Below, piece after piece: positions 12,453-63,458 of a stretch of DNA of 64,000 nucleotides. Every line of letters begins with the position of its first letter. The first letter of the stretch is position 1. The notes under the pieces were generated by a model that saw nothing but the letters and a program-made list of their open reading frames with translations, did no database searches and was not told the DNA's origin. Source of the stretch: an uncultured Synergistales bacterium (GTDB lineage Bacteria > Synergistota > Synergistia > Synergistales > Aminobacteriaceae); the NCBI GenBank assembly GCA_905234075.1, contig CAJOGI010000005.1, forward strand, positions 1 through 64,000. Reading direction: 5' to 3'. Both the position numbers and the translations under genes were made by a program.

Positions 12453-12508
12453 GAACTAGAAAGTAGGAAGTAGGAACAAGGGACAAAAAAACTTCCTGCC
12501 TCCTGCTC
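12453..12508 (+). repeat. TAGGAAG heptamer array with inverted partner
   Basis: Three to four degenerate TAGGAAG-type units (12453-12476) are followed by an A-rich spacer and an inverted stretch (CTTCCTGCCTCCTG, 12492-12505). The two arms can pair as a hairpin between the nuclease gene and the SpoIIE gene. Confidence 0.75.
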
Positions 12509-12525
12509 GAGCCCTACATGAAAAA

Positions 12526-14346
12526 ATGCCGTTAGATTTAAAAAAAAATAAAAGTATCTTAACGCAGACAGCTTTAATCATTGCTGTATTATTCTGTGCT
12601 GCTGTGGCAACAAACGGGCTTGCAATTTATGACAGCGGCTCAGATTTTTATATGTCGGGCCTAATTGACAACAAGCGCAGATTAACTCATTACGTTGAAG
12701 GAATGATGAGCGGCTTCGCTTCGATTGAGTGGCTTCTCAAATATTGGCAAAATAACTATGAATTAATTGACATTTCTCGAAATTCTCAGGACTTGAGAAA
12801 ATATAATCAAGTCCCCTACGAATTTTTAATCAACAGAAAAAAAATTACTGCTCAAGAAATTGAAGAAAATCTTTTGCCCGACCAGCAATTATTATTTGCT
12901 GAATATTGCTACCGGGAATTAATGTCGGACTTTGACGAAATTAAAACCATGCTTCAGCCGTTTATTTTATATTGCGTCAGGCCGCTCGAAACTGAAATTA
13001 ATTCAGCGTTCGTTTTTTTCAACGCCGTTGATAAAAAAAATCACGATGAATTTATAAAAGAACAGCTCGGCACAATATGGTCGCTCGATATGTCAAAGCA
13101 CCCCGTAATAAAAAATATGTACGAGTCAGGCCAAGAGTCCGACGAATTTGAACACGTAAAGCTAAAAAATCAGGAAATTTTATACGGCTACATGCCTTTA
13201 ATCATAAACGGAAAAATTTTGTGCCACATAACAGCAGCATTTTTATGGGACGATGTAAAAAATGCAATCTACGACAGTTTAATCTCGGTTGAAATAAAAA
13301 ACGCGCTCTTGCTCGTAGCAGCAGGGGCCATCTTGACGATTTTGCTTTACATGCTGATGCTTCGGCCTCTTGAAAAAGTTCAGAGCAGCGTAAGAGAATT
13401 TACGAGGCGCAAGGACAGCAACTCTATAGTCATAGAACTTGAGACAATAAAATCACGCAACGAGATCGGGCGGCTTGCCGATGACGTTTCATTATTGGCC
13501 GTAACTCTCGAACAATATAACGAAGAAGCTGCGCGGCTTTCAGCCGACAACGCAAGAATCAACACCGAGCTTTCACTCGCGGCAACAATACAAGAAGGAA
13601 TTTTGCCGAAAAATTTTCCGAACGTCGATGAATTTTCGCTCTACGCTTCAATGCGTCCGGCTAAAGAAGTCGGCGGAGATTTTTACGACTTTTTCATGAT
13701 TGATGACGATCACATCGCGTTAGTTATAGGCGACGTATCGGGCAAGGGAATTTCTGCGGCTCTGTTCATGATGACAGCAAAGACGACTCTAAAAGACTGT
13801 GCCTTGTCTTCAACTAATGATATTAATGAAATAATCCGTGAAGTTAATGATAAATTATATGAAGGCAACGAAGCAATGTTATTCGTTACGTTATGGTTTG
13901 GAGTTCTGACGATTTCGACGGGCGAAATAAATTACGTCAACGCCGGCCACGAATACCCGGCATTGAAACGCAGCGGCGGAGAGTTCAAAATCATAGACGA
14001 CATTCATGCAAGACCGCTTGCGATATTAAAAAATATTATATTCTCGTCAGGAAAATTAAATCTTAACAAAGGCGACACGCTTTTCCTTTATACTGACGGA
14101 GTAGTTGATGCTCATAATGAAAATGACGAACATTTTGGCGAAGATGGACTTGTCGAAGCTCTTAACAAAAATCCATGCGAAACGCCGCAGGAAATTGAGG
14201 GCTCCGTTTTGAAAAGCCTTAATGATTTTACCGGCAGCGTTCCACAATTTGATGACGTTACAATGCTCTGTGTGAACTACCGCCGCGAAGTCAGCTTCTC
14301 GAATACTACGCTGGGGACAACGTCCCGGACAGTTCCCCCGAAGTGA
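12526..14346 (+). CDS. SpoIIE/RsbU-type PP2C phosphatase with HAMP and extracytoplasmic sensor
   Basis: The 606-residue protein has a membrane segment at about 11-33, an extracytoplasmic sensor to about 255, a second segment at about 260-282, a HAMP linker (about 285-340), a coiled coil, and a C-terminal SpoIIE phosphatase domain (about 360-590). Metal-binding aspartates appear in KEVGGDFYDF and VIGDVSGKG. Such proteins dephosphorylate anti-sigma factor antagonists (STAS proteins) in partner-switch pathways. No ribosome-binding site is evident at the ATG; a heptamer array lies just upstream. The 3' end overlaps coaD on the other strand by 70 bases. Confidence 0.88.
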   Translation: MPLDLKKNKSILTQTALIIAVLFCAAVATNGLAIYDSGSDFYMSGLIDNKRRLTHYVEGMMSGFASIEWLLKYWQNNYELIDISRNSQDLRKYNQVPYEFLINRKKITAQEIEENLLPDQQLLFAEYCYRELMSDFDEIKTMLQPFILYCVRPLETEINSAFVFFNAVDKKNHDEFIKEQLGTIWSLDMSKHPVIKNMYESGQESDEFEHVKLKNQEILYGYMPLIINGKILCHITAAFLWDDVKNAIYDSLISVEIKNALLLVAAGAILTILLYMLMLRPLEKVQSSVREFTRRKDSNSIVIELETIKSRNEIGRLADDVSLLAVTLEQYNEEAARLSADNARINTELSLAATIQEGILPKNFPNVDEFSLYASMRPAKEVGGDFYDFFMIDDDHIALVIGDVSGKGISAALFMMTAKTTLKDCALSSTNDINEIIREVNDKLYEGNEAMLFVTLWFGVLTISTGEINYVNAGHEYPALKRSGGEFKIIDDIHARPLAILKNIIFSSGKLNLNKGDTLFLYTDGVVDAHNENDEHFGEDGLVEALNKNPCETPQEIEGSVLKSLNDFTGSVPQFDDVTMLCVNYRREVSFSNTTLGTTSRTVPPK

Positions 14347-14753
14347 AAAATTTCTCTTACGCTTGAACTTGATACGTACGAATATTTTGGATCAGTAACT
14401 ATAAAAAAAGTTTCTATTTCGGGAGCTAACTGCCTGTTCATTAAGGCCATTTGAAATTCATATTCAAAATCAGACATAGCACGAAGGCCGCGAATTATAA
14501 CTCCTGCTTCTTTCTGTCTGACATAATCAACTAAAAGCCCGTTGAAGCTGTCAACTTTTATATTGCTGACGTGTTTTAACGACTCTCGCGCCATTTCGCA
14601 GCGTTCATTTACACTGAAGGACGCATTTTTTCTTTCATTAATGAGTACGCTGACGATGACTTCATCAAAAACTGCCGCCGCTCTTTCAGCTATATAAATA
14701 TGTCCGTTTGTTATCGGGTCAAAAGAACCGGGATATACTGCCCTGACTTTCAT
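14277..14753 (-). CDS. coaD: Phosphopantetheine adenylyltransferase CoaD
   Basis: At 158 residues it is full length. YPGSFDPITNGHIYIAERA holds the nucleotidyltransferase (T/H)xGH-type site and YSYVSSSSVREI the second conserved motif. CoaD transfers AMP to 4'-phosphopantetheine in coenzyme A synthesis. Its last 24 codons overlap the convergent SpoIIE-type phosphatase gene. AAGGAG lies upstream of the ATG. It follows the MATE gene by 15 bases and is probably in the same transcript. Confidence 0.95.
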   Translation of the reverse strand: MKVRAVYPGSFDPITNGHIYIAERAAAVFDEVIVSVLINERKNASFSVNERCEMARESLKHVSNIKVDSFNGLLVDYVRQKEAGVIIRGLRAMSDFEYEFQMALMNRQLAPEIETFFIVTDPKYSYVSSSSVREIFHFGGTVRDVVPSVVFEKLTSRR

Positions 14754-14768
14754 TGAAAATTTTTCTCC

Positions 14769-16168: not shown

Positions 16169-16657
16169 TTATGTCAATTTTAGGAAAGTTAAACGCGTTT
16201 CGCCGTAATCTCTTTCTGAAATTATCTCAAAATTTTCATTAATATTAATATTATTTATTGGCTCGCGGCTTGAATGTTCAATTACAAAAACGCAGTTATC
16301 AGCAAAAAGTTTTTCAAAATTCATGAGCGTCAAAATCTCGTCGCACCAGCCGGAATTATACGGAGGATCGGCAAAAATTATGTCAAATTTCATTTCGCGC
16401 TTGAGCAGCCACGACACAGCCCGGCGAACTTCGAGCGATAATATCACGGCGTTGTCAGGCGCAATTTTTTTTATGGCTTCAGCTCTTGATTTAATGCTCT
16501 CAACGAAAACGCATGACTCCGCGCCGCGTTTCAAAGCCTCAAGCCCCACGCGCCCGGTGCCTGAAAATAAATCAAGAAAAATTTTTTTCTCAATATCGCC
16601 CAAAATATTAAACAACGCCTGCAAAACTTTTCCTGAAGTCGGCCTGACATCTTTCAT
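16169..16657 (-). CDS. rsmD: 16S rRNA (guanine(966)-N2)-methyltransferase RsmD
   Basis: The 162-residue Rossmann methyltransferase has the AdoMet motif LDLFSGTGRVGLEALKRGA and the catalytic DPPY motif (IIFADPPYNSG). RsmD methylates G966 of 16S rRNA during small-subunit assembly. It begins MKDVRPTSGKV, matching the RPT start common to the family but lacking the usual first 20 or so residues. Its ribosome-binding site is provided by a TAGGAGG heptamer array shared with the end of trmB. Confidence 0.92.
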   Translation of the reverse strand: MKDVRPTSGKVLQALFNILGDIEKKIFLDLFSGTGRVGLEALKRGAESCVFVESIKSRAEAIKKIAPDNAVILSLEVRRAVSWLLKREMKFDIIFADPPYNSGWCDEILTLMNFEKLFADNCVFVIEHSSREPINNININENFEIISERDYGETRLTFLKLT

Positions 16658-16660
16658 AAA

Positions 16661-16685
16661 CTCCTAACTCCTACCTCCTAATTCT
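16661..16685 (-). repeat. TAGGAG heptamer array between trmB and rsmD
   Basis: On the minus strand this reads as three and a half units (TTAGGAGGTAGGAGTTAGGAG). It holds the TAG stop codon of trmB and the Shine-Dalgarno sequence of rsmD. Confidence 0.8.
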
Positions 16686-17613
16686 TACCTGTACAAAGCC
16701 TTTGTGCCGCGTCAGTCAAAGCCGAACGCACTGCCGGAGTTAAGAAAGCCCCTGAAGTTTTATCGAGGCGGATTAAAAATCCCTCATCACGCGGCGAGAT
16801 ATTTATATAAAATTTTTGCTCAAATTCGTCATCGCTCGTCAAAGTCTCCAACAAAAATCTTTCTCTGCAGCTAAAATTATTTCCGAATTTCCAAAATGCT
16901 TTTTTGTTTTCGTCCTTGCCCGAAATATTTTTCAGTGCCTCAACGTCGCTGTGACTCACCTGATTTTTTATTTTTATGTGCATTTTTTTTGTTGTTCTCC
17001 GTGTAACTGTAAATTCTTTAATTTTTCTGAATGTCAATCTAAAAATATTTTTGCCTTGCTCAAGCCATTTGCGCTCATATTTAGTCGTGATTTCACGCGC
17101 CGGATTGATTTCAAAATTTTCCGCTCTCAATGCTTCATGAAGGCCAAGAACGCGCCAGACTTCACGGGAATAATTTTCGTCATCTGATACCATTTCAAAA
17201 ATCCCGTTGATTTTTAATACAGCCGCTAATCCGTCCGAAAAATCCCTTGCTGTAACACGTCTGTGAGCGTTGCCGTTGCCCGGCCATGGACATGGGAACT
17301 GCATAAAAATTTTTTCGAGCGTCTCATCTTCAAATAATTCTCGCAGCATATATCTTGCGTCAGTGTTTATAATTTTTAAGTTATCTAAGTCAGCGGCACG
17401 CCTTGAGCATCGCAAAACGCATGACTGTGAAATTTCAATTCCGTATAAAAAAATTTCGGGATTAGCCTTTGCGTATTGAACAGTAAATTCTCCGTTGCCG
17501 AAGCCTATTTCAAGCTGCGTGCAGGATTTTACAGGAAGAGGAAGACCGCTTTCAGGAAAAATTATTATTCCATATTGCGGTCTTGCCTGTGTCGTGGCGG
17601 TTAAAAAGTCCAT
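16678..17613 (-). CDS. trmB: tRNA (guanine-N7-)-methyltransferase TrmB
   Basis: The 311-residue protein has the AdoMet motif LEIGFGNGEFTVQYAK, then YGIEIS and the TrmB motif IFMQFPCPWPGNGNAHRR. TrmB makes m7G46 in tRNA. The C-terminal extension of roughly 110 residues beyond the core is unlike the short E. coli enzyme but is seen in some TrmB homologues; its role is unclear. The first 13 bases overlap the end of the phosphohexomutase gene, and the stop codon lies within a heptamer array. Confidence 0.9.
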   Translation of the reverse strand: MDFLTATTQARPQYGIIIFPESGLPLPVKSCTQLEIGFGNGEFTVQYAKANPEIFLYGIEISQSCVLRCSRRAADLDNLKIINTDARYMLRELFEDETLEKIFMQFPCPWPGNGNAHRRVTARDFSDGLAAVLKINGIFEMVSDDENYSREVWRVLGLHEALRAENFEINPAREITTKYERKWLEQGKNIFRLTFRKIKEFTVTRRTTKKMHIKIKNQVSHSDVEALKNISGKDENKKAFWKFGNNFSCRERFLLETLTSDDEFEQKFYINISPRDEGFLIRLDKTSGAFLTPAVRSALTDAAQRLCTGKN

Positions 17614-22151: not shown

Positions 22152-23274
22152 ATGCTAAGCGAAACCAACGTAAAATCAGAATTGGAAGAACTGCGCGGAC
22201 TTATTCAGAACGTGCAGGACAGTCTTTGACATTCCTAAATTACAAACCGCATCGAAAAAATTAACGGACCTGACCTCACAGCCGGACTTCTGGAACTCAC
22301 AAGGCCACGAGGAAAAATTAAAAGAACTTTCTCAAATTAACTCGCGTCTCGAAAATTGGAAAAAAATAAAATCAGCTTACGATGATTTAATTACGCTTGA
22401 GGAAATTTTGAGGGACGCTCCAGACGCGGAATTAGAGGCAGAATTTAATCAAAGCTCCGCGAAACTCCGGGAAGAACTCGAACGCGCAAGCCTTCTTTTA
22501 TTATTGAACGAGGAACACGACAACTCGAACGCTATTTTAATGATTCACGCTGGGAGCGGAGGACTTGACTCTCAGGACTGGGCCGGAATGCTGCTGCGAA
22601 TGTATTTAAGATACTGCGAGCGCGAAGGCTTTGAGGCTAAAGTAATTGAGGCCACGACGGACGAGGGCGAAGGCATTAAAAACGCTACAGTCATGATAAA
22701 GGGCGATTATGCTTACGGATTTTTGAAGTCGGAGCGCGGAGTTCACAGGCTCGTGAGAATTTCGCCGTTCGACTCGGCTCACAGACGGCACACGAGTTTT
22801 GCTTCGGTCTTAGTGTCCCCTGAGTTCTCTGATGATGTTGACATTGAAATAAAAAGCGAGGACTTAAAAATCGATACGTTCAGGGCAAGCGGAGCGGGCG
22901 GCCAGTACGTCAACAGGACTGACTCGGCTGTAAGGATAACTCATATTCCGACGGGGATTGTCGTAACGTGCCAGAATGAACGCTCGCAATTACTTAACCG
23001 TCAAACGGCAATGCACGTCTTGAAGAGCAGATTATATGAAATGGCTTTGCAGGAACGTCAGGAGGAATTATCTTCAATCGTCGGCGAGAAAAAAGAATCG
23101 ACGTGGGGCAGTCAAATTAGAAGTTACGTTTTGCACCCTTACACTCTCGTTAAAGATCACAGGACTAATTACGAGAGGGGAAATATTCAAACCGTCCTCG
23201 ACGGAGATATTAATGACTTCATCATGGAATTTTTGAAGCAGAAAGCTAGAAGTCAGGTAGGAGTTAGGAGTTAG
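22152..23274 (+). CDS. prfB: Peptide chain release factor 2, with programmed +1 frameshift
   Basis: An ATG at 22152 opens 25 codons that end at TGA (22227-22229) in the context CTT TGA C. A +1 shift joins directly to the long frame that continues to TAG at 23274. The joined product is RF2: the peptide anticodon region and the GGQ loop (FRASGAGGQYVNRTDSAVR) are present. RF2 reads UGA and UAA stops and controls its own synthesis through this shift. An annotation that begins at 22408 would miss the first 85 or so residues. The last seven residues (SQVGVRS) are encoded by a heptamer repeat array that runs across the stop codon. Confidence 0.94.
22215..22230 (+). promoter_or_regulatory. prfB: RF2 programmed +1 frameshift site
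   Basis: CAGGACAGTCTTTGAC contains an AGGA Shine-Dalgarno-like element, three to four bases, then the slippery CTT codon, UGA and C. This is the conserved RF2 autoregulation signal; low RF2 favours the shift from CTT to TTT. Confidence 0.93.
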
Positions 23275-23287
23275 GAGGCAGGAAGTA
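23254..23287 (+). repeat. TAGGAG heptamer array across the prfB stop
   Basis: About five units (GGTAGGA, GTTAGGA, GTTAGGA, GGCAGGA) end right before the ATG of the S55 gene. They encode the C-terminal tail and stop codon of RF2 and the ribosome-binding site of the next gene. Confidence 0.85.
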
Positions 23288-24994: not shown

Positions 24995-25645
24995 ATGAAA
25001 AATAAAGGATTATTTATCGTCATTGAGGGGGTTGACGGTTCGGGCAAAAGCACGCAGGCCGAAAAATTAGCAAAGTGGCTCGAAAATAAAACGGGCGTTA
25101 AGACAATAAGGACAGCAGAGCCGTTTATCTTGCGCGAATTAATTTTAGGGCGTAAGGATTTATGTGCGCTTTCAGAGTTATTATTGTTCTTGGCCGACAG
25201 AGCCGAACACGTCAATAAAATAATCATGCCTGCAATAAAATCAGGGAATAATATAATCTGCGAACGCTACAACGATTCAACGCTTGCTTATCAATCCGGC
25301 GGACATGAAATAGAATTTTCTCACGTCAAAAATTTAATTACGGTCTGCAAATTTCCTGAGCCCGACATAAAAATTTTTCTTGACTTACCGCCCGAAATTG
25401 CTTTTGAGCGCGTCAAAGCCCGCAATAATCTCAATGATAAATTTGAAGCCGAAGGTCTCGCGTTAATTAAAAAAGTCTCCGATTTTTACAGAAATTATTA
25501 TTCTACTTCCTACCTCCTACCTCCTACTTCCTACCTCCTAACTATTGACTGCGGCAATCTCGACGAAGAGCAAACGTTCAAGGCGATAATTTCAAATATT
25601 AATTCTTTGCTGGAGGAATTTTTTAATGGCCGGCATTCAAGTTAA
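24995..25645 (+). CDS. tmk: Thymidylate kinase
   Basis: At 216 residues it carries the P-loop IEGVDGSGKSTQAEKLA, the ERYNDSTLAYQ substrate motif and FLDLPPEIAFERVKAR. It phosphorylates dTMP to dTDP. A block of six heptamers (25503-25544) adds the sequence STSYLLPPTSYLL between the last helix and the terminal strand (TIDCGNLDEE), a region that is normally a loop of variable length. It heads the tmk-yaaR-holB-ricT block and overlaps yaaR by 20 bases. Confidence 0.95.
   Translation: MKNKGLFIVIEGVDGSGKSTQAEKLAKWLENKTGVKTIRTAEPFILRELILGRKDLCALSELLLFLADRAEHVNKIIMPAIKSGNNIICERYNDSTLAYQSGGHEIEFSHVKNLITVCKFPEPDIKIFLDLPPEIAFERVKARNNLNDKFEAEGLALIKKVSDFYRNYYSTSYLLPPTSYLLTIDCGNLDEEQTFKAIISNINSLLEEFFNGRHSS
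25503..25544 (+). repeat. In-frame antisense heptamer array inside tmk
   Basis: Six units (CTACTTC, CTACCTC, CTACCTC, CTACTTC, CTACCTC, CTAACTA) span 42 bases, exactly 14 codons. They read as the reverse of the intergenic TAGGAG arrays, so no stop codon appears. Confidence 0.9.
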
Positions 25646-29291: not shown

Positions 29292-29358
29292 GTAGAAAAT
29301 AGGAAGTAGGAAGTAGGAAGTAAAAAAAGTTCCTGCTTTCTGTTTCCTAAATCCTAAC
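29292..29358. repeat. TAGGAAG heptamer array with inverted partner
   Basis: Three exact TAGGAAG units and flanking degenerate ones (29292-29322) are followed by A7 and inverted copies (TTCCTGCTTTCTGTTTCCTAAATCC). The hairpin lies between glgA and glgC. Confidence 0.8.
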
Positions 29359-30863: not shown

Positions 30864-30927
30864 ATTAGGAAGCAGAAGTTTGTAAAGAATTTTTTTACTT
30901 CCTAGCTCCTGCCTCCTAACTCCTACC
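30864..30927. repeat. TAGGAG heptamer inverted array
   Basis: ATTAGGAAGCAGAAG (30864-30878) is followed by a T-rich spacer and CTTCCTAGCTCCTGCCTCCTAACTCC in inverted orientation. It lies between glgP and glgA. Confidence 0.75.
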
Positions 30928-30932: not shown

Positions 30933-32678
30933 CTACATGCCTCTGAAGTCAATCGAGTAGGCCTTAGCCGCGTACTCTCTGACTACTCTGTGAGTGTTAA
31001 AGAAGCTCGCGTCAAGAGCTATAGTGTGTTTCATCATGTCAACCCATTTATCATGATTTTGATAATAGGTCGGGATAACTTTTTTCTCAAGTTTTTCGTA
31101 GAGGTCAACTGCGTCAAGATTTTCATCATAATGAGCAGTCGCGCTCGTCTCCGTAGGTTCAGGCCCGATTGACCAGCCCGTTACGTCCTCAATCCAGCCC
31201 TCAATCCACCAGCCGTCAAGAACAGAGAAATTCATGATGCCGTTCATAGCACACTTCATTCCGCTCGTTCCGCTGGCCTCTCTGGGCCTCACGGGGGTGT
31301 TAAGCCAAACGTCAACGCCCTGCGTTAAAAGCGATGCAATTTCCATGTTGTAGTTATCAATGAAAACTATCGGCACGTCATTCGTAAGCTCTTTCGCGGC
31401 CTTGCGTATTCTCTGAAGAAGTCTTTTGCCTCCGTCATCGTGAGGGTGAGACTTTCCTGCAAAAACAAACTGAACTTTTTTATTTCCTGCTATTTTTTTC
31501 AGTCTCGGCACGTCAGTTAATAACAAGTCAGCTCTCTTATACGTTGCGGCACGTCTTGCAAATCCGATTGTCAGAACGTCCGGGTCAAGCTGCACGCCGT
31601 TGGTCTCAAGAATACGCGCAAAGAGCCTTAATTTTGAAGCCTGATGAGCTGCCCAGACCTCGTCATTAGGAATCGTAAGAGCCTGAACTAAAATTCCGGG
31701 ATCAAGTTCCCAGCCCGGTATGTGCTTGTTATAAAGTTTTCTCATTCCCGAACTGACCCAAGTTGTCGGGTGAATACCGTTAGTTACCCAGTCAACAGTT
31801 TCCATATGGAACATATCGTTGCTGACTTCGGCGTGTTTTTTCGCAACTCCGTTCACGTAACGGCTATAGCGCAGGCCAAGTTCCGTCATCGATACACCGG
31901 GCCTGTCGGGAAGCATTTTATGAATAGTTGCTTGAGCGTCCGGCGGGAAAACTTCGTCAATCATTCTGAACTCAAAATAGTCATGCCCTGCCGGGACAGG
32001 CGTATGTGTCGTGAAGACAACCTGCTCGCGGATTTTATCAGGATCGTAATAGCCAAGCTCGCGCATTAACTCAAGCGTCAAAAATCCTGCGTGCCCTTCG
32101 TTAAGGTGGAACGTGTCAATATTCATGTAGCCCAAGTCGCGCAGCATTCTCAGTCCGCCTACGCCTAAAATAAATTCCTGCCGCAGTCTGTAACGATTAT
32201 CGCCGCCGTATAAATACCAGCATAATTTTCTGTCGTCAGGGTGGTTAGGTTCAAAATCAGCATCAAGGAAATAAATAGGAAGCGGATAGCCTGTCGCGCC
32301 GATGCACTCGTACACCCACACGCCGACTTGAATTTCCCGGCCTTCCATTGTGATTGAAACGCGATTAGGAAGAAGTGTTAATTCTTTTGTCGGATCCCAC
32401 ACAACCGGCTTTTCCTGTTGCCAGTCGTCGTTATTAAATTCCTGAACGAAATAGCCTTTACGATATAAGAGAGTAACTCCGGCCATCGGAACTCCGAGAT
32501 CAGCGGCACTCTTGAGAATATCGCCCGCTAATACGCCAAGTCCTCCGGAATATGTGGGGATTGACTCTTTAAGCCCGACTTCCATTGAGAAGTAGGCTAC
32601 GGGGCGGAAGGCGGGATCGTTTTCCATAAGCGTCCTCAGAGAGTTGCCGAGATCGCTTCTGTGTAGTCTTTGAATCAT
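30933..32678 (-). CDS. glgP: Alpha-glucan phosphorylase (short GT35 type)
   Basis: The 581-residue protein is a short-form alpha-glucan phosphorylase. Features include YFSMEVGLKESIPTYSGGLGVLAGD, HLNEGHAGF, HTPVPAGHD and the pyridoxal-phosphate lysine region REASGTSGMKCAMNG. It releases glucose-1-phosphate from glycogen. GGAAAGGAGC lies upstream of the ATG. The gene order places breakdown and synthesis enzymes in one run, which allows turnover control. The 140-base gap upstream holds a possible -10 (GATAAT) on the minus strand. Confidence 0.92.
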   Translation of the reverse strand: MIQRLHRSDLGNSLRTLMENDPAFRPVAYFSMEVGLKESIPTYSGGLGVLAGDILKSAADLGVPMAGVTLLYRKGYFVQEFNNDDWQQEKPVVWDPTKELTLLPNRVSITMEGREIQVGVWVYECIGATGYPLPIYFLDADFEPNHPDDRKLCWYLYGGDNRYRLRQEFILGVGGLRMLRDLGYMNIDTFHLNEGHAGFLTLELMRELGYYDPDKIREQVVFTTHTPVPAGHDYFEFRMIDEVFPPDAQATIHKMLPDRPGVSMTELGLRYSRYVNGVAKKHAEVSNDMFHMETVDWVTNGIHPTTWVSSGMRKLYNKHIPGWELDPGILVQALTIPNDEVWAAHQASKLRLFARILETNGVQLDPDVLTIGFARRAATYKRADLLLTDVPRLKKIAGNKKVQFVFAGKSHPHDDGGKRLLQRIRKAAKELTNDVPIVFIDNYNMEIASLLTQGVDVWLNTPVRPREASGTSGMKCAMNGIMNFSVLDGWWIEGWIEDVTGWSIGPEPTETSATAHYDENLDAVDLYEKLEKKVIPTYYQNHDKWVDMMKHTIALDASFFNTHRVVREYAAKAYSIDFRGM

Positions 32679-33507: not shown

Positions 33508-33532
33508 CCTCCTAACTCCTAACTCCTACCTG
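33508..33532 (-). repeat. TAGGAG heptamer array upstream of the M48 gene
   Basis: Three and a half units (AGGTAGGAGTTAGGAGTTAG, then GAGG) on the minus strand supply the M48 ribosome-binding site. Confidence 0.8.
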
Positions 33533-33535: not shown

Positions 33536-33973
33536 TCAGTCTTCCCAGTCGATAGAGTCTAAAATTTTTTCAAAGTCTTTTTGCAGCGCATCATCTTCAA
33601 AACCGCTCATCGAAATGACCAAGTAATAACCGTCTCCGCCCGTTAAAAGCGCGATGCTTTCAGCTCCGGCACTGTTCATAAAACTGAAAGAATAATCTCC
33701 GTCATCGTCCTGTTCTAAATCCCGGCCGTCCATTTGAATATAAAGCCGTTCGGCTATGTCGGTCAAAGAAGCCTCGCCCATTTTGTTGAACGCTACAGCA
33801 AGAGAAGCATTACCGTTCTCATGTTTTATAACGAGCGTTGAGCCTTGAAGCCCGCCCGTCCAGCCGACAGGGACTTCAGCGCGGAAGTTCCCGAACGCTT
33901 GAGGCTTTGCCCCTGCAATCGAAGCAAAAATTAAAACGAACATCAACGCTAAAAAAAATTTTTTTGTCCTCAT
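33536..33973 (-). CDS. Small secreted protein, paralogue of the gene at 34087
   Basis: The 145-residue protein has a signal peptide (ending AGAKP) and a single beta-rich domain with FRAEVPVGWTG, SLTDIAERLYIQMDG and DYSFSFMNSAG. The pattern repeats in the neighbour at 34087-34506 (FTVDVPEGWT, SLKEIADAFVQTLGG, AYTFEFTNQNG), so the two arose by duplication. I do not recognise the family. A periplasmic role is likely from the signal peptide alone. Confidence 0.75.
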   Translation of the reverse strand: MRTKKFFLALMFVLIFASIAGAKPQAFGNFRAEVPVGWTGGLQGSTLVIKHENGNASLAVAFNKMGEASLTDIAERLYIQMDGRDLEQDDDGDYSFSFMNSAGAESIALLTGGDGYYLVISMSGFEDDALQKDFEKILDSIDWED

Positions 33974-34576: not shown

Positions 34577-34615
34577 TTTCTCATTCCAGTCAGAAATTTT
34601 CAGAAAAAAATATTT

Positions 34616-34640
34616 TGGGGACTACAATGGGGACTACAAA
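34616..34640. repeat. Tandem 12-base repeat
   Basis: GGGGACTACAAT occurs twice in tandem (the second as GGGGACTACAAA). The reverse strand resembles the GTAG-rich core of the dispersed repeat at 21970 and 49695. It lies in the 257-base gap between hpf and the secreted protein gene. Confidence 0.5.
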
Positions 34641-34708
34641 AATCTCAAAATTTTTCAGCTGTCGTAAATTTTCACAAAGAAAAAATTTTTCGCAAAGTTA
34701 AAAAAAAA

Positions 34709-38506: not shown

Positions 38507-38548
38507 ATTAGGAGTTAGGAGTTGGAGCCTTGCTCCTAATTTTTTTTA
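38507..38548 (+). terminator. Heptamer-built terminator after cstA
   Basis: ATTAGGAG (38507-38514), a heptamer-array loop, and CTCCTAAT (38533-38540) pair perfectly and are followed by eight T residues. The heptamer repeat thus forms the stem. Confidence 0.8.
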
Positions 38549-40318: not shown

Positions 40319-40783
40319 CTAAATAAAATTCCACGACGATAATATTTCCTCCGCGATTTTTATTAACTCGTCCTGATTTAATGACGGGCTCTCAATCGTC
40401 AGCACGACATCATCATTAACTTCTACAGCGAGCGCAAGAGGCAAGTATGATTGAATTTCTAAAATTGCTTTTTTGCCGTTTATTTCAAAAATTTTATATT
40501 CACTTGCGGGCATCAAGCCTTTTGATTTTTTAACTTCGTCAGGAACATAAAGACTTCCCGTGCCTGTGCCTTCAGTCAAAATTATTTCAAGAGTGCCTTT
40601 AGGAGCATCGCGCTCATAAGTTTTGTAAACAACTTGTCCTAAATCCTCAGAAGTCGCCTCGAGATTTAAGGGCTGAATATACTCGCTTGTCAAATGCCAT
40701 TCATCAATCTTTTCGGGAAGTTCGAGAGCATACGCGCCCGAAGATAAAAGCGCAAAAATCAAAGCCGCAAAAATTTTTTTCAT
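40319..40783 (-). CDS. Secreted protein of unknown function
   Basis: The 154-residue protein has a signal peptide (residues 1-19, SSGAYALE) and one beta-rich domain with alternating charged residues. It ends IAEEILSSWNFI. It resembles, in outline only, the small secreted proteins at 33536 and 34087. I do not recognise the family. It follows the DUF4416 gene with a heptamer array as ribosome-binding site. Confidence 0.7.
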   Translation of the reverse strand: MKKIFAALIFALLSSGAYALELPEKIDEWHLTSEYIQPLNLEATSEDLGQVVYKTYERDAPKGTLEIILTEGTGTGSLYVPDEVKKSKGLMPASEYKIFEINGKKAILEIQSYLPLALAVEVNDDVVLTIESPSLNQDELIKIAEEILSSWNFI

Positions 40784-40800
40784 TCCTAACTCCTAACTTC
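40784..40800 (-). repeat. Short TAGGAG heptamer array
   Basis: GAAGTTAGGAGTTAGGA on the minus strand holds the last codons (EVRS) and TAG stop of the DUF4416 gene and the ribosome-binding site of the next gene. Confidence 0.7.
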
Positions 40801-42895: not shown

Positions 42896-44096
42896 TTCAT
42901 CGCTCAACGCTACGCCTTCGGGCGAACGAACACATATAGCGTTTTTCGGTTTACGTAACGCAGGAAAATCGAGCCTAGTTAATGCCGTAACGGGTCAGGA
43001 TTTAGCAGTCGTGTCTGAAATAAAAGGCACGACTACCGACCCCGTTAAAAAAGCTATGGAGCTTTTGCCGCTCGGCCCGGTATTAATTATTGATACTCCC
43101 GGACTTGACGACGAAGGCGCGCTCGGTGAGCTTAGAGTGAAACGCGCTTTGAACGTCTTAGCTAACTGCGACGTGGCTGTCTTAGTTCATGACGCGAATA
43201 ATAATTTCACGCAGGCCGAAGAAGATTTAATAAAAATTTTTGACGAGCGCAAACTCCCCTACATAATCGCTAATAATAAAATTGACTTAATACCTCCTAC
43301 CTCCTACCTCCTACCTCCTAACTCAATAAACGTCAGTGCGCTTACGGGCGAGAATATAAATTTATTGAAAGAAAAAATCGCTGCTCTTGCGAAAAAAGAC
43401 GTGCCCGAAAAAAAATTAATTTCGGATTTATTAAATCCCGGCGACGTTGTAGTTTTGGTTGTGCCCGTTGACAAGGCCGCGCCTAAGGGAAGATTGATAC
43501 TCCCACAGCAGCAGACTATACGAGATATTCTTGACGCTCATTGCTCGGCGTTCATATGTCAGGATAACGAACTTGAGAACGCTCTGAAAAAATTAAATGT
43601 CCGCCCGAAAATCGTTGTAACTGACTCACAAGTCTTTGAGAAAGTTAATAAAATCGTGCCGGAAAATATTTTGCTCACGTCTTTTTCAATTCTGTTTGCG
43701 CGTTACAAAGGCAGCTTGAAAATTTTAATCAAAGGCGCGGAAAAATTAGCACACCTGAAGGACGGCGACAAAATTTTAATTTCAGAGGGCTGCACTCATC
43801 ACAGACAGTGCGGCGACATCGGAACAGAAAAAATCCCGGCATGGATAAAAATTTTTACGAAGGCCAAGCCCGATTTTTCTTTCACTTCCGGCGGAGAATT
43901 TCCAAGCGAAGACGAATTAAAAAATTTTTCTCTTGTCATTCACTGCGGAGGCTGTATGCTGAACGAGCAGGAAATGCAATCGCGAATTAAACGCGCCGTC
44001 AAGGCCGGAGTTCCTGTCGTGAATTACGGAATAGCCATTGCGCATATGCACGGAATTTTGACGCGAAGCCTCGAACCGTTCAAATTTTCTCTGTAA
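42867..44096 (+). CDS. hydF: [FeFe]-hydrogenase maturation GTPase HydF
   Basis: The 409-residue protein has a GTPase domain (FGLRNAGKSSLVN, then DTPGLDDEG and NKIDL), a dimerisation domain and a C-terminal cluster-binding domain with CTH near SEGCTHHRQCGD and HCGGC near the end. HydF is the scaffold on which the H-cluster is assembled. A heptamer array (43291-43325) inserts PPTSYLLPPNS between the G4 motif NKID and the G5 motif SALTG. That loop is normally short, so a tolerated insertion is plausible. Confidence 0.95.
   Translation: MTTNAILDSNSSLNATPSGERTHIAFFGLRNAGKSSLVNAVTGQDLAVVSEIKGTTTDPVKKAMELLPLGPVLIIDTPGLDDEGALGELRVKRALNVLANCDVAVLVHDANNNFTQAEEDLIKIFDERKLPYIIANNKIDLIPPTSYLLPPNSINVSALTGENINLLKEKIAALAKKDVPEKKLISDLLNPGDVVVLVVPVDKAAPKGRLILPQQQTIRDILDAHCSAFICQDNELENALKKLNVRPKIVVTDSQVFEKVNKIVPENILLTSFSILFARYKGSLKILIKGAEKLAHLKDGDKILISEGCTHHRQCGDIGTEKIPAWIKIFTKAKPDFSFTSGGEFPSEDELKNFSLVIHCGGCMLNEQEMQSRIKRAVKAGVPVVNYGIAIAHMHGILTRSLEPFKFSL
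43291..43325 (+). repeat. In-frame antisense heptamer array inside hydF
   Basis: Four exact TACCTCC units and one TAACTCA unit encode IPPTSYLLPPNS in the GTPase G4-G5 loop. As in tmk, the orientation is the stop-free one. Confidence 0.9.
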
Positions 44097-47510: not shown

Positions 47511-47541
47511 CAGGTAGGAATTAGGAGTTAGGAGGTAGGAG
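47511..47541 (+). repeat. TAGGAG heptamer array after leuA
   Basis: Four units (AGGTAGGAATTAGGAGTTAG and GAGGTAGGAG) are followed by T7 and CCTGC. Confidence 0.8.
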
Positions 47542-47562
47542 TTTTTTTCCTGCAATAAAAAA

Positions 47563-48482: not shown

Positions 48483-48541
48483 AGGTAGGAATTAGGAATG
48501 AAAAAAACTACCTCCTACCTCCTACCTCCTAACTCCTAATT
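48483..48541. repeat. TAGGAG heptamer inverted array before pfkA stop
   Basis: AGGTAGGAATTAGGAA is followed by A7 and CTACCTCC repeated three times and CTAACTCCTAA. The inverted arms can form a long hairpin. On the minus strand the array carries the TAG stop of pfkA. Confidence 0.85.
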
Positions 48542-49534
48542 ATTTAAGTGGCTTCCAGACGCTGCAATAGCTTCAAGAATTTCGTATCTGTCCATCTGTA
48601 AATGTTTCTTCATTGCTAGAGCCTCTTCTATCGGAATTTCAACAATTCCGCCTTCGCGCGTAGCGATGACGCTCCCCGAACGTCCTTCAGCAAATGCCCT
48701 GACCGCGTAATAGCCCATTCGCGTGGCGGTCTCTCTGTCGCGTCCCGTCGGTGCTCCGCCCCTTTGAATATGTCCCAAGACCGTAACACGCGGATCGATG
48801 CCTATCGCTTCTTTAATCTTTGCGCCGATTTCAAATGCACTTCCAGCGCCTTCAGCAACGACTATCATAAAATGCGTAGCTCCTGCTAATCTGGAGTTCT
48901 GTATTCTTTCGACAACATCTTTTTGAAAATCAACTTCGCGCTCAGGAATTAAAACTGAAGTCGCACCGACCGCTATTCCGACATAAAGAGCTAAAAATCC
49001 TGCGTGTCTTCCCATGACCTCGACAACTGAGCAGCGTTCATGAGACTGCATTGTGTCGCGCAGCTTGTCAATACATTCAATCGCCGTGTTGCATGCCGAG
49101 TCAAATCCTATTGTGTAATTTGAGCATCCTATGTCGTTGTCAATCGTTGCAGGGATACCCATAACGGGAACGCCGAGCCTTGAAAGTTCCAACGCGCCTT
49201 TGAAAGTTCCGTCCCCTCCGATAGCAACGATGCCGTCAAGCCCCAGCATTCTGCAAGTCCCTACAGCTTTTTCGCGTCCTTTTTCCGTCATAAATTCTTC
49301 GCTGCGTGCCGTATATAAAATCGTGCCGCCTCGTCCGAGAATGTGCCGCACCATATTAACATCAAGTATTACAAAATCGCTGTTGATTAAACCGGAATAG
49401 CCGCGCCTAATGCCTACACACTCAATTCCATAGTGCATTGCCGTTCTCGCTACGGCTCTGACGACCGCGTTCATGCCGGGCGAATCTCCTCCGCTTGTGA
49501 GTACGCCGATGCGTTTAATTTTTTTGTCTGCCAT
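48536..49534 (-). CDS. pfkA: 6-phosphofructokinase
   Basis: The product of about 332 residues has IGVLTSGGDSPGMNAV, AIGGDGTFKGAL and PATIDNDIGCSNYTIG, with a Gly after GGD typical of ATP-dependent enzymes rather than the pyrophosphate type. It phosphorylates fructose-6-phosphate in glycolysis. I place the start at 49534 (MADKKIKR), downstream of GGAGGC, rather than at 49555. TATAAT on the minus strand (about 49598-49603) is a likely -10. The stop is within a heptamer array. Confidence 0.94.
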   Translation of the reverse strand: MADKKIKRIGVLTSGGDSPGMNAVVRAVARTAMHYGIECVGIRRGYSGLINSDFVILDVNMVRHILGRGGTILYTARSEEFMTEKGREKAVGTCRMLGLDGIVAIGGDGTFKGALELSRLGVPVMGIPATIDNDIGCSNYTIGFDSACNTAIECIDKLRDTMQSHERCSVVEVMGRHAGFLALYVGIAVGATSVLIPEREVDFQKDVVERIQNSRLAGATHFMIVVAEGAGSAFEIGAKIKEAIGIDPRVTVLGHIQRGGAPTGRDRETATRMGYYAVRAFAEGRSGSVIATREGGIVEIPIEEALAMKKHLQMDRYEILEAIAASGSHLNN

Positions 49535-49789: not shown

Positions 49790-51115
49790 TTATCCCAAAA
49801 AATTTGTCAAAGCACCTGCATCTTTCAACATGTCGGCGATCTCATCATCAAAATTCATCATGGCACACATAAAAGCGTTCATACCCTTGTTGTCGCATAT
49901 AGTCAAATCTGCGCCGTATTGAATTAAAATTTTTATTATGTCCAGCTGTGCTTCGCGTTTTGCTGCTGCGGAAAAAGTTGCGGTACTGAACCATAATGCG
50001 CCGTTTTCTGCTCTCAGTCCGCCTGTTCTGATAAGGGCCGAAATTAAAATTTCAGAGCTCCTGTCTTTGTCAGATATTGCCCACATTAGAGCAGTCTGTC
50101 CTCTGTTATCCTGAACGTCCGGGTCAGCTCCTGCGTCAAGCAGTCTTTTTATGACTCCGGCATCAACTTCCCCGTCGATTACCGCAAGCATAAGAGCTGT
50201 ATATCCATCAGCGTCGCCTAAATTCGGGTCAGCCCCGTGCCGTAAAAGAGCATCAGCAATATTTTCTCCCACTAGAGCCGCGTACATCAGCGGCGTTCTT
50301 CCACGCGAGTCCTTGAAATTCGGATCGGCCCCGTAAGCTAAAAACAGTTCGACGGCCCGTAGATTATCCGTTGAGACTAATATATTCAGATCTGTCGTAA
50401 TAGTTCCGTCTCCGAAATCAAATTTTTCGTTTGCGTCCGCGCCGTTCTTTAGAAAAAATTCAAGCAGTCTCGTATCCTCATTGGGAACATTCAGCACGGC
50501 CAGAGAAAGCGGAGTGCGGTCGTCTAGGCACTGCGCAGTTATATCCGCTCCGTTTTTTACAAGAAGCCGGGCAAGTTGCACGCTGTTTAATTTTATTGAT
50601 GCCAGTATAGCGTCTGTATAGTCCGCTCCGAAGTCCATCAGGATTTTTATAATTTCTGAAATCTGTGTTTTATTGTCCTGCTCCACAAATATAAAAGCCG
50701 CGTACGTCAAAACGTTAAACCCTTCGCCGATCGGTGCATTAACGTCCGCGCCGAGTTCAAGAAGCCATTGAACGGCCTCCGGATTGTTCGCTGTAACTGC
50801 ACATAATAAAGGCGTTCTGCTATAAATATCACGGGAGTTTATATCAGCTCCGCAGCGTATCAAGTATTTAGCTAAATATTTATCATTCGCCATGATCGCC
50901 GCCATGAAACCGTAAACAGCTTTTGCCTTATGCTTCAACAAAACTTCAATGGCTTCAAAATTGCTCTGCATTACCGCGACAAAAATTGGAGGGAGCTGCG
51001 TGCCGTTATACATAGCTTTTCTGTTTATGCTTGCTCCGTTGTTTATGGCCTCTTCTATTTCTTCATAACTTCCCCGTGCGCAGAGCTGAAGAAATTCTCT
51101 TTGCTTCATTTTCAT
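49790..51115 (-). CDS. Ankyrin-repeat protein
   Basis: The 441-residue protein is almost entirely ankyrin repeats (about twelve). Typical units are RTPLMYAALVGENIADALLR and GQTALMWAISDKDRSS with DNRG or DADGYTAL turns. There is no signal peptide. Such proteins bind partner proteins; the partner is unknown. It starts 4 bases after tlyA and overlaps nothing. A strong ribosome-binding site is not visible. Confidence 0.9.
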   Translation of the reverse strand: MKMKQREFLQLCARGSYEEIEEAINNGASINRKAMYNGTQLPPIFVAVMQSNFEAIEVLLKHKAKAVYGFMAAIMANDKYLAKYLIRCGADINSRDIYSRTPLLCAVTANNPEAVQWLLELGADVNAPIGEGFNVLTYAAFIFVEQDNKTQISEIIKILMDFGADYTDAILASIKLNSVQLARLLVKNGADITAQCLDDRTPLSLAVLNVPNEDTRLLEFFLKNGADANEKFDFGDGTITTDLNILVSTDNLRAVELFLAYGADPNFKDSRGRTPLMYAALVGENIADALLRHGADPNLGDADGYTALMLAVIDGEVDAGVIKRLLDAGADPDVQDNRGQTALMWAISDKDRSSEILISALIRTGGLRAENGALWFSTATFSAAAKREAQLDIIKILIQYGADLTICDNKGMNAFMCAMMNFDDEIADMLKDAGALTNFLG

Positions 51116-56307: not shown

Positions 56308-57036
56308 ATGGCACGTCAGAAGAAACCTGAAGAGCCCGGACTTTCAGCCCCGTTCTACATGAGTACTTACGGGGACATGATTACGCTTGTTCTTTGCTTT
56401 TTTATATTGCTCTTCGCTATGTCATCGATAGACGCGCAGAAATTTCAGAAGGCTTTATTATCGTTAAGAGGCTCGCTCGGAGTTCTGAAGGGCGGAGTTA
56501 CGACAGAAGAGTCGCAGGACCCTAACAAGAGCGGAGAAGTCGGGACAAGTCCGGGCGCGAGCGAGCGCGTTGAAATTGACACAAGACACGTAGCATATAC
56601 GTTAAATTCTTTTTTGCGTTCGGAAAATCTTACGCGGGATATTCAGGTCTCAATAAATCAAAGAGGCGTAGCCGTTTCGATAAGTGATCAATTTTTATTT
56701 CAGCCCGGCCGCGCAGAATTACGACCGGAAGGTCAGAGAGCTTTATATAAAATCTCGGAGCTTGTGAGAGATAGAGTACCTGCCGCCGCAGTCGAGGGAC
56801 ACACGGACGCAGGAATTTTGAACGGCGGAATTTATCGAGACAACTGGGGGTTAAGCGCAATGAGAGCCGCCGCAGTTGCAAGTTACATGGAACACGCCGG
56901 AGGCTTTGACCCTACGAAATTGCAGGCGGTCGGTTACAGTTCTGCACAGCCGATAGTCCCGAACGACACGCCGGCGCACAGAGCATTAAACAGGCGTGTT
57001 GAAATTGTTTTCTTATCACAATATCCTAAGAGGTAG
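56308..57036 (+). CDS. motB: Flagellar motor stator protein MotB
   Basis: The 242-residue protein has one membrane segment with the proton- or ion-binding Asp (STYGDMITLVLCFFILL), a plug, and a C-terminal OmpA-type peptidoglycan-binding domain (about 115-240, VEGHTDAGI and LSAMRAAAVASYM, NRRVEIVF). The stop lies at the start of a heptamer array, which sets off the hicB gene. Confidence 0.95.
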   Translation: MARQKKPEEPGLSAPFYMSTYGDMITLVLCFFILLFAMSSIDAQKFQKALLSLRGSLGVLKGGVTTEESQDPNKSGEVGTSPGASERVEIDTRHVAYTLNSFLRSENLTRDIQVSINQRGVAVSISDQFLFQPGRAELRPEGQRALYKISELVRDRVPAAAVEGHTDAGILNGGIYRDNWGLSAMRAAAVASYMEHAGGFDPTKLQAVGYSSAQPIVPNDTPAHRALNRRVEIVFLSQYPKR

Positions 57037-57062
57037 GAATTAGGAGTTAGGAGGTAGGAGGT
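57031..57062 (+). repeat. TAGGAG heptamer array between motB and hicB
   Basis: Four to five units carry the TAG stop of motB and end in GGAGGT immediately before the hicB ATG. Confidence 0.85.
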
Positions 57063-59924: not shown

Positions 59925-59956
59925 AAGCCTCATTAACTTTTAACTAAATTTTTTCG

Positions 59957-60379: not shown

Positions 60380-60392
60380 AATAATTTCAGAT

Positions 60393-60671
60393 GTGAGTCT
60401 TACGGCCTATGTGATCAAGGCTGTAGCAGCATTAATAATTATGTCGCTTGGCGCACTGATTTTCTTGAAGTACATGAAAAAATATAATCAGAATATAAAA
60501 GGTGCGTCAGCCGTTAGAATATTGTCGTCCCTGCGCCTGACGAGCAGGGATATATTTTTAGTCGTTCACTGCGGCCCGGACGTTATAGCCTTCGTCTTAA
60601 CACAAAAGGGCGCATCTTTCATGGGCAGGTGGAGTTATGAAGAATGGAATAAATCTCAAGAGCAAAATTAA
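60393..60671 (+). CDS. fliO: Flagellar biosynthesis protein FliO-like
   Basis: The 92-residue protein has one membrane segment (about 5-27) and the FliO domain with VRILSSLRLTSRDIFLVVHCG. FliO helps assemble FliP in the export gate. The start is GTG, and its end overlaps fliP by 35 bases. Confidence 0.82.
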   Translation: MSLTAYVIKAVAALIIMSLGALIFLKYMKKYNQNIKGASAVRILSSLRLTSRDIFLVVHCGPDVIAFVLTQKGASFMGRWSYEEWNKSQEQN

Positions 60672-61458: not shown

Positions 61459-61461
61459 TTT

Positions 61462-61494
61462 CAGTTAGGAAGTAGGAGTTAGGAGTTAGGAGGG
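61462..61494 (+). repeat. TAGGAG heptamer array between fliP and fliQ
   Basis: Four units (TTAGGAAGTAGGAGTTAGGA and GTTAGGAGGG), about 47 bases before fliQ. Confidence 0.85.
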
Positions 61495-61540
61495 AAAAAA
61501 TTACTCTGCTTCTCATTAATTTTCAGAAAGGAATAAAAAA

Positions 61541-61816
61541 ATGCCCGTAACAAATTTGAGCCTCTTAGATATTTTGACGGGGGCAATATGGACGATGATT
61601 TCCGTTACTCTGCCGATATTATTAACGGCTATGATAATCGGACTTTTAATAGGAATTTTGCAGACGGCGACTTCAATACAGGAGCAGACTTTAATATTTA
61701 TCCCGAAAATTTTAGCGGTCTTTCTGTGTATAGTTTTATTATCGCCGTGGATCGGTCAAAGAATGTTAGTGATGACACGAGAAATTTTAGGACAGCTGGA
61801 AAGATTTATTCAGTGA
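61541..61816 (+). CDS. fliQ: Flagellar export gate protein FliQ
   Basis: The 91-residue protein has two membrane segments and the FliQ pattern (LIGILQTATSIQEQTLIFIPKI). It works with FliP and FliR in the export gate. No fliR or flhB follows: a terminator at 61830 ends the operon. Confidence 0.92.
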   Translation: MPVTNLSLLDILTGAIWTMISVTLPILLTAMIIGLLIGILQTATSIQEQTLIFIPKILAVFLCIVLLSPWIGQRMLVMTREILGQLERFIQ

Positions 61817-61829
61817 AGATAATACAAAA

Positions 61830-61866
61830 AGACAGTCCCGGAATTTTCGAGACTGTCTCTTTTTTT
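61830..61866 (+). terminator. Intrinsic terminator after fliQ
   Basis: AGACAGTC and GACTGTCT form an eight-pair stem followed by CTTTTTTT. It lies 13 bases after the fliQ stop. Confidence 0.9.
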
Positions 61867-61877
61867 ACCGTGTTAGC

Positions 61878-62408
61878 TTATTTCTTTTTCGCTTTTACTT
61901 TTTTCGTGGGGACTGCGCCCTTCTTTGCGGCCGACGAAGAAGATACTGACTTGCCGAGCGCATAGGCCGCGCCCTTTGCAGGAGTCGAACCGGCAGGAAT
62001 TGCGGCAAAGGTCTTGGGATTTTCATCGGTGCCGTATTCAGTGCCGTGAATTTCGTTGCCGAGCATGTCATAATGACGCAGATATGTCAGAGCAAACTGC
62101 GAGCCGTTTTCATTGTATTGATAGCCGTACTCTGTAAAGTACAGGCTTCCGGCAACTTCGGGAGAAATTCCAAACTTCGACATAAGAAGCTCGATAGTCT
62201 CATTCTTAACTGTTGTGTTTGTATAATACTTTCTCGAAATTGCAAAGGGGACTCCGTCGCTGTCCTTGCCGTAGTCAAGTAAATACCACGTCATTTTATT
62301 CTTGTCCTGGCCAAGATTTTTCTGCTTAGCAATGTCCCAAGCCATAACAGGAGAAGCAAACGCAACGATAACAGCAACAAGCAACGCGCACAAAATTAAT
62401 TTTTTCAT
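61878..62408 (-). CDS. Secreted protein of unknown function
   Basis: The 176-residue protein has a signal peptide (residues 1-23, VMAWD), a compact domain rich in aromatic residues (YYTNTTVKN, LYFTEYGYQY) and a lysine- and alanine-rich tail (AAKKGAVPTKKVKAKKK). I do not recognise the family. The basic tail suggests binding to nucleic acid or an anionic surface (inference). Confidence 0.75.
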   Translation of the reverse strand: MKKLILCALLVAVIVAFASPVMAWDIAKQKNLGQDKNKMTWYLLDYGKDSDGVPFAISRKYYTNTTVKNETIELLMSKFGISPEVAGSLYFTEYGYQYNENGSQFALTYLRHYDMLGNEIHGTEYGTDENPKTFAAIPAGSTPAKGAAYALGKSVSSSSAAKKGAVPTKKVKAKKK

Positions 62409-62473
62409 TATTTATACACAGCCTTTCTTAAATTTTAGCATTGAGCTATTTTAACACAGAAAAATTTTTAGAG

Positions 62474-63427
62474 TTAGTAATGCCGTTTTGAAAGTATCCA
62501 GCAGAAAAACGGCCCGCCAGTCAAAGCAGTCAATACACCGACAGGAAGCTCGCCTAAAAACTGAGCCGCACAGTCAGCTATTGAAAGAATACACGCGCCC
62601 GTCAAGAACGAATGAAAAATTAATTTTCTGTGAGAAGCACCGATTAAATTTCTTGAAATGTGAGGCACTGCCAAGCCAACGAAGCCTATTATCCCGAATG
62701 AACTGACAGCTAAAGCAACACCCGTCGAAGTGAAAATTAGTAAGATGATCCGCGTAAATTTTTCATTAATTCCTAAGATTGAGGCCCGGTCCCGGCCGAG
62801 CGACATCGCGTCGAGAGCAGGAGCAAATATAAACGCAGGAATTAAAATTAAAACTGTTCCGGCATATGCCGCGTAAACGTCTTTAACGCCTGCGCCCGAA
62901 AAACTTCCCATGAGCCATAAAACGACCGCGCCTATTTTATCTCCGGCGATTGATTTTATAAAAGTTACTCCGGCTGAAAGAATTGAATTTGAAATTACTC
63001 CGGCCAAAATTATTTTTTCAGTGCCGCCCATCGAAATTATGCCCGTCAAAAATAAAGCGAACAGTGCGCCCATAAAAGCCATAGGCATAATCATAAAAGA
63101 GCCAGACATTATTCCCAGTGCCGCCCCGAACGCCGCGCCCGATGCTATTCCGAGCGTATAAGGTTCCGCCAAAGGATTAGCAAGCAGGCCCTGAAGGACG
63201 GCTCCGGCTACGCTTAACAATCCGCCCGTACCGATTGAGCACAATAAACGCGGCAGCCTCACCGAACGAATGACGACCCCCTCAGGCGAAGCATCTGCAT
63301 GAAACAAAAAATAAATCACTTCGGTTAAAGGAATTTTCCATTCGCCGAAAGTGATTTTGAAAATCGAAATTAAAATTAAAATTACGAGCAAAAAAATTAT
63401 TTGCTTGTTATATTTTTTGCTCCTCAC
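62474..63427 (-). CDS. FecCD-type iron/siderophore or cobalamin permease
   Basis: The 317-residue protein has about nine to ten membrane segments and the FecCD pattern RLPRLLCSIGTGGLLSVAGAVLQGL and LGIASGAAFGAALG. It is the membrane part of a binding-protein-dependent importer of iron complexes or cobalamin. The start is GTG next to a heptamer array. It lies just after the CbiK-type chelatase, so cobalamin, cobalt or heme transport is possible (inference). Confidence 0.88.
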   Translation of the reverse strand: MRSKKYNKQIIFLLVILILISIFKITFGEWKIPLTEVIYFLFHADASPEGVVIRSVRLPRLLCSIGTGGLLSVAGAVLQGLLANPLAEPYTLGIASGAAFGAALGIMSGSFMIMPMAFMGALFALFLTGIISMGGTEKIILAGVISNSILSAGVTFIKSIAGDKIGAVVLWLMGSFSGAGVKDVYAAYAGTVLILIPAFIFAPALDAMSLGRDRASILGINEKFTRIILLIFTSTGVALAVSSFGIIGFVGLAVPHISRNLIGASHRKLIFHSFLTGACILSIADCAAQFLGELPVGVLTALTGGPFFCWILSKRHY

Positions 63428-63458
63428 CTCCTACTTCATACCTCCTAACTCCTACCTG
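63424..63458 (-). repeat. TAGGAG heptamer array between cbiK and the permease gene
   Basis: On the minus strand, CAGGTAGGAGTTAGGAGGT is followed by ATGAAG and TAGGAGG. It carries the TAG stop of the chelatase gene. Confidence 0.8.

Follow-up and report, generated by a model that had tools for sequence, protein, structure and literature searches.

The stretch of DNA analysed here, referred to throughout as the window, comprises 64,000 nucleotides and corresponds to contig 5:1-64000 of a 1.84-Mb genome assembled in 18 contigs. Its genes include prfB, tmk, glgC, glgA, hydF, leuA, pfkA, motB and fliP, and in, between and behind such genes the sequence harbors short tandem arrays of a heptamer close to TAGGAGT (Table 1). 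The array at 16660..16680 on the minus strand also ends 2 nt ahead of the ATG of a further gene, rsmD (16169-16657, minus strand). Arrays are present at all of the places named in the original prediction, which was made from the letters of this stretch, and all could be re-located in the window.

Table 1. Heptamer arrays of the window and their genetic context
Feature	Position	Strand	Context
Array, 2 strict units	12464..12477	+	Starts 11 nt past stop of 11808-12452(+); inverted arm downstream
Array, 3 units	16660..16680	-	First TAG is stop of 16678-17613(-)
Array, 3 units	23258..23278	+	CAGG ahead; overlaps end of prfB ORF
Array, 5 units	25506..25540	-	Antisense within tmk reading frame; orthologous G007 site without array
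Array, 3 TAGGAAG units	29300..29320	+	Antisense, in glgC/glgA gap; hairpin with next 25 nt
Array, 4 loose units	30898..30925	-	7 nt past stop of glucan phosphorylase gene 30933-32678(-)
Array, 3 units	33508..33528	-	CAGG leader; 7 nt past stop of 33536-33943(-)
Array, 2 units	38509..38522	+	Left arm of intrinsic-terminator-like hairpin in convergent gene gap
Array, 2 units	40782..40795	-	Overlaps gene junction 40783/40786
Array, 4 units	43293..43320	-	Antisense within hydF; G007 21 bp (3 units) shorter, in frame
Array, 4 units	47515..47542	+	CAGG leader; 8 nt past leuA stop; G007 has 2 units
Partner arm, 2 units	48486..48499	+	Inverted pair with 48511-48538
Array, 4 units	48511..48538	-	First TAG is stop of pfkA 48536-49534(-)
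Array, 4 units	57034..57061	+	First TAG is stop of motB 56308-57036
Array, 4 units	61466..61493	+	7 nt past fliP stop
Array, 4 loose units	63427..63454	-	CAGG leader; overlaps stop of 63452-63883(-)

The window holds no match to Rfam families. The similarity of its prfB frame (22408-23274) to release factor 2 is confined to the part after about residue 80, which would fit a gene with the usual programmed frameshift, and the best NCBIfam matches of an ankyrin-repeat protein (49790-51115) fall far under the cut-off. A second dispersed repeat, which spans about 110 bp and contains tandem copies of the 12-mer TGGGGACTACAA, is found at 34590-34706; copies that are 79-84% similar occur on several contigs of the sister species G007, and the 12-mer is present in tandem at six places in the 464-kb sample defined below.

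Census and anatomy of the arrays

Sixteen arrays of at least two strict TAGGAR units occur in the window, where 100 dinucleotide shuffles yielded 0.02 on average and never more than 1. Exact tandem runs number 19 at period 7, each of the periods 8 to 15 giving 0-3. Across the 1.84-Mb genome there are 306 matches to TAGGAGKTAGGAGK and 70 to TAGGAGTTAGGAGT, the reversed-pattern control giving 0 for both. The family is thus dispersed and overrepresented, as had been proposed, and the arrays are indeed mostly intergenic and read with transcription. In the window, those at 25506 and 43293 are intragenic and antisense. The original prediction had recognized the family and its hairpins; the preference for four units, the leader CAGG, the close tie to stop codons and the differing dialects of the species had escaped it. 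An assembly artefact is ruled out because arrays recur at orthologous sites of independent assemblies.

Anatomy was described in a sample of 464 kb (contig 1:1-300000, contig 2:1-100000 and the window) that contains 86 arrays, with genes and starts taken from our own simple coding-potential caller. With one mismatch per unit allowed, 11 arrays have two units, 12 have three, 56 have four, five have five and two have six. The first unit is nearly always TAGGAGT or TAGGAAT, and the subsequent units are mainly TAGGAGG. CAGG lies directly ahead of 38 of the 86 arrays and a relative of CAGG ahead of most others, while T(A/T)A is found directly on the 3' side. Four units account for 39/57 of the sense arrays, 10/18 of the antisense or other arrays and 7/11 of the intragenic ones; since the mode is alike in all three classes, it is not produced by selection on sense RNA alone, and the four-unit size looks like a property of whatever is gained. 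The 56 four-unit arrays display 39 distinct combinations at positions 6 and 7, mostly with R at position 6 and T or G at position 7, and are therefore not recent identical copies.

A GC-rich, palindrome-like insert, AGCCTGCCCGACGCAGGCGGGGA, is found within or adjoining the heptamer array at contig 1:176658 (locus L152), and again within or adjoining the array at the G007 orthologue of contig 1:31681. It is possibly another small dispersed element.

Position behind stop codons and the second arm

In the 464-kb sample, 60 of the 75 intergenic arrays are sense relative to the gene 5' of them, and 57 of the 86 arrays are both sense and start between -17 and +16 nt from the stop codon of that gene. 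The array's own TAG is the gene stop in 21 of these 57, and TAG serves as stop in 26/57 array genes compared with 81/396 genes overall. Array density is 2.45 per kb of gap between co-directional genes and 2.90 in convergent gaps, and falls to 0.46 in divergent ones. Among 44 co-directional arrays, the distance from the array end to the next start is 4-12 nt in only three, and its median is 57 nt. On account of these densities and of the scarcity of arrays near starts, the anchor is the end of the preceding gene and not the start of the next. A sense bias after stops is seen in each of the six array-rich species described below, with sense:antisense counts of 72:16, 98:32, 17:9, 19:4, 7:2 and 48:11.

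It had been predicted that any one array can act both as a stop codon and as a Shine-Dalgarno sequence. The first part stands for the 21 arrays that provide the stop; a general Shine-Dalgarno role is not supported, given the few arrays at the appropriate distance and convergent gaps that are as array-dense as co-directional ones. A wider translational function, consisting of tandem stops in three frames and/or of AGGAG sequences that retain ribosomes so that they can re-initiate on the following gene, can draw on the stop-codon usage given above, on the retention of TAG or TGA in nearly all unit types of every dialect, and on the 3' end of the 16S rRNA, CACCTCCTTTCT, which is complementary to AGGAGG. 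We nevertheless consider such a function unlikely, as the antisense arrays (16 after stops, together with the intragenic ones) share the four-unit form, and the convergent densities and Shine-Dalgarno distances count against it as well.

Many arrays are followed by a second arm. A complementary stretch (p<=0.05) occurs within the 70 nt downstream of 33/57 sense arrays, compared with 6/57 for upstream sequence. It is found in 9/12 convergent gaps; for co-directional gaps the figures are 10/14 when long and 13/30 when short. Where present, the arm is usually decayed. U-runs after it are found mainly at convergent ends, where on average 4.3 of the 8 nt that follow are T. Around half of the sense arrays are without a significant second arm and most are without a U-run, and the features of an intrinsic terminator, a GC-rich stem plus a U-run, belong to a minority of arrays, mainly at convergent ends.

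Within the window, the hairpin at 38507, which includes the array at 38509, has a terminator-like fold (-18.7 kcal/mol, z -3.4) with a U-run behind it, the array at 29300 forms a near-perfect hairpin stem of 20 bp (z -5.8), and 48486 and 48511 constitute a full inverted pair. The expectation that inverted pairs would give hairpins, some of them terminators, is in this way supported, and where genes converge, arrays with an arm resemble terminators. An asymmetry of G.U versus A.C is also present, but because it is equally strong in antisense arrays the wobble test is uninformative on RNA pairing.

Turnover between species and a proposed cassette

The sister species G007 is syntenic and about 95% identical. 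At 57 orthologous sites, 16 of its arrays are identical, 10 have the same length with other units, 14 have another length, mostly by one unit, five are degenerate and 12 are absent, so that 17/57 arrays are missing or lost. In the reverse comparison of 45 G007 arrays, two are absent and four degenerate in the genome studied here. Gain or loss and change of copy number at orthologous sites, which the original prediction had proposed to look for, are thus both found.

At contig 1:156474, CAGG and four units are present in a site that is empty in G007, G013, G008 and G011, and that in G014 holds an array of that species' own GAGGAGT type. Judged against four empty relatives, at least this one array appears to have been gained whole. 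At 155115 neither G007 nor G014 has an array, and this site and the other apparent gains, at 34702 and 79337, have short direct repeats at their flanks; such repeats, which border several of the empty sites, mean that in some cases the sister may have deleted an array.

Slippage acts too, because 14 of the 57 orthologous pairs differ in length, and the arrays could on that basis be ordinary heptamer microsatellites that grow and shrink by slippage from a chance AGGAG, with purifying selection clearing coding and promoter sequence and leaving those behind stops. Heptamer simple sequence repeats are already a known class, and the same heptamer reaches arrays of 15 units in cyanobacteria among the matches listed. 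A sharp, orientation-independent mode at four and a CAGG leader are, however, not expected of slippage, and together with the 39 distinct four-unit haplotypes and the whole-array gain at 156474 they make this explanation somewhat improbable.

Ungapped divergence from G007 is 0-2.5% at unit positions 2-5 and 8-9% at positions 6-7, compared with 5% in the flanks, the low value in the core arising partly from the search pattern. With that qualification, AGGA as the least variable part of the unit is what would be expected of a platform in 3' untranslated regions that binds a protein reading AGGA in RNA. CsrA, with its ANGGA core, is such a protein, and the genome encodes it. Every array-free member of the genus tested has CsrA as well, however, and the protein is unspecific for that reason; the antisense arrays are also left unexplained, and we regard a platform of this kind as very unlikely.

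To the anatomy, four-unit mode, position, dialects and presence or absence between species that are demonstrated here we would fit a small, dispersed, non-coding cassette that is tolerated or used behind stop codons, and that evolves both by gain of the whole cassette and by slippage and turnover of its units. We give this reading an even chance. The cassette would consist of a leader, (C/T/G)AG(G/T), four TAGGA(G/A)(T/G) heptamers and T(A/T)A, some 35 bp in all, and would often continue through an A/T-rich loop into a complementary, usually decayed arm, to reach about 75 bp. Its place behind stop codons is proposed to reflect that the cassette does no harm, or is of use, at that position. In the sense orientation each of the three frames would meet a stop codon in it, and pairing with its second arm would give a stem-loop at the mRNA 3' end that could act as an intrinsic terminator where genes converge. 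The cassette would spread through whole-cassette gains and change through slippage and turnover of units, its unit dialect being lineage-specific. We infer both the hairpin or stop role at 3' ends and the cassette, not slippage alone, as the unit of gain.

No mobilising gene was found among the families sought. Y1 transposases (Y1_Tnp, RAYT) number 0 in the present genome (G000), G007 and G014, and reverse transcriptases (PF00078) are absent from these three genomes and from G020, so that the known families of both are ruled out as movers.

Distribution, dialects and relation to known repeats

Six of 43 genomes of the genus are rich in the general pattern, with 430, 369, 310, 242, 238 and 82 matches, and in the others it is absent or rare. 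By LeuA protein identity, the six array-rich species all fall within the nearest seven; the LeuA tree gives no firm support for placing them in one clade, and a near relative, G020, is almost array-free. Each of the six has its own dialect of AGGA-R-K-K, with AGGAGGT and AGGAGTT in the genome studied here, AGGAGTG in G014 and AGGAATT and AGGAAGT in G046, and four units form the commonest class in all of them. In G045, contigs C5, C9, C75, C85 and C99 carry long AGGAGTC arrays of at least eight units, which sets them apart from the four-unit arrays found in related genomes; these long arrays look like ordinary expanded microsatellites.

Outside the genus, the matches listed for the 21-mer (TAGGAGT)3 include many Nostocales, Bacteroidota and assorted gut metagenome-assembled genomes, and among them the sense:antisense counts after stops are 29:4 in cyanobacteria and 15:4 in Bacteroidota. 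Loci labelled Selenomonadaceae, Neisseriaceae, Thermoguttaceae and Clostridia each have several arrays as well as convergent pairs. One Neisseriaceae-labelled genome (locus L034) has seven TAGGAR arrays in 7.3 kb, adjoining inverted GCCTGAAA words that resemble the Neisseriaceae uptake sequence. Control scans of viral contigs gave 17 heptamer triples of TAGGAGT, two of TGAGGAT, one of TAGCAGT and 15 of TAAGAGT, whereas (TAACTGA)3 occurs in 104 stretches of IMG/VR contigs (L393-L472), far above the other triples tested (1-17); some heptamers recur, yet no simple rule emerges among the five triples tested. It is conceivable, if doubtful, that there is a general class of mobile four-heptamer cassettes which insert whole behind stops through an undescribed activity in distantly related bacteria, with lineage dialects and a four-unit size set by the moving machinery and not by a quadruplex.

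Several known systems share features with these arrays. The cyanobacterial STRR heptanucleotides are dispersed, intergenic tandem heptamers, reportedly treated by Mazel et al. in 1990; the known STRR sequences differ from the heptamer here. The analogy with them that was originally drawn is sound, as both are tandem and dispersed and the TAGGAGT triple is itself found in many Nostocales, often sense and behind stops, but the cyanobacterial arrays run to at least 15 units whereas the mode here is four. The accompanying statement that no repeat of this sequence had been described is upheld for the literature searched, in which no TAGGAGT-type tandem heptamer is described in a bacterium, although the heptamer itself is present in genomes of Nostocales, Bacteroidota and others. 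REP elements and DNA uptake sequences are likewise short dispersed repeats at gene 3' ends, with inverted pairs that act as terminators and with lineage dialects, all of which the arrays resemble; they differ in that the arrays are tandem units, not single words, and are not accompanied by a RAYT (Y1_Tnp) gene.

The TAACTGA repeats of marine Beggiatoaceae, cyanobacteria and Bacteroidetes (MacGregor 2015, PMC4679880) are also stop-containing heptamers in two to six tandem copies, intergenic, scattered among phyla and without a known mover. In Beggiatoaceae they lie just upstream of start codons and their counts fall steadily from two units (PMC4679880). The arrays here are not placed in this way, in forward orientation and finishing a few nt short of a start, but are anchored to stops and have a mode of four.

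The closest counterparts are the GGGAATC repeats of Xanthomonas, described with the GGGGA(C/T)T repeats of Nostoc (Rehm et al. 2015, PMC4692102). The Xanthomonas repeats are dispersed tandem heptamers, mostly of four units, intergenic and 0-50 bp past the stop on the coding strand; they are rare in divergent gaps, form many convergent inverted pairs and vary in unit and length between sister species (PMC4692102). The arrays share the dispersal, the mostly intergenic post-stop position, the preference for four, the convergent pairs, the scarcity in divergent gaps and the variation of units and length from one sister species to the next. They differ in having a tighter length cap, a CAGG leader, another host lineage and unit dialects that are here followed across six species, and above all in being of the TAGGAGT type without a GGG tract. 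A G-quadruplex, as proposed for the Xanthomonas repeats, could account for the shared architecture, and two-layer forms are possible in silico for some TAGGAGG-rich arrays. GGG is present in only 2/86 arrays, minimum-energy folding yields a quadruplex for 23/86 arrays by themselves and for 12/57 when downstream sequence is included, and none forms in a four-unit array of AGGAATT, the commonest unit of G046, so that the quadruplex reading is weak and, in our view, highly improbable. With no GGG tract in the heptamer, the quadruplex rationale for four units is not transferable to it.

The arrays therefore belong with the known heptamer repeats, as the Xanthomonas architecture minus the G-tract thought to explain it. 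Heptamer arrays have been known from unrelated bacteria for decades, with their cause lacking and with the quadruplex as the favored reason for four, and a four-unit, post-stop design without GGG challenges that answer to why there are four. As this heptamer occurs in both orientations and in six dialects, and is variably present between sisters that are about 95% identical, the questions of why four and how the arrays spread become testable within the strains of one clade.
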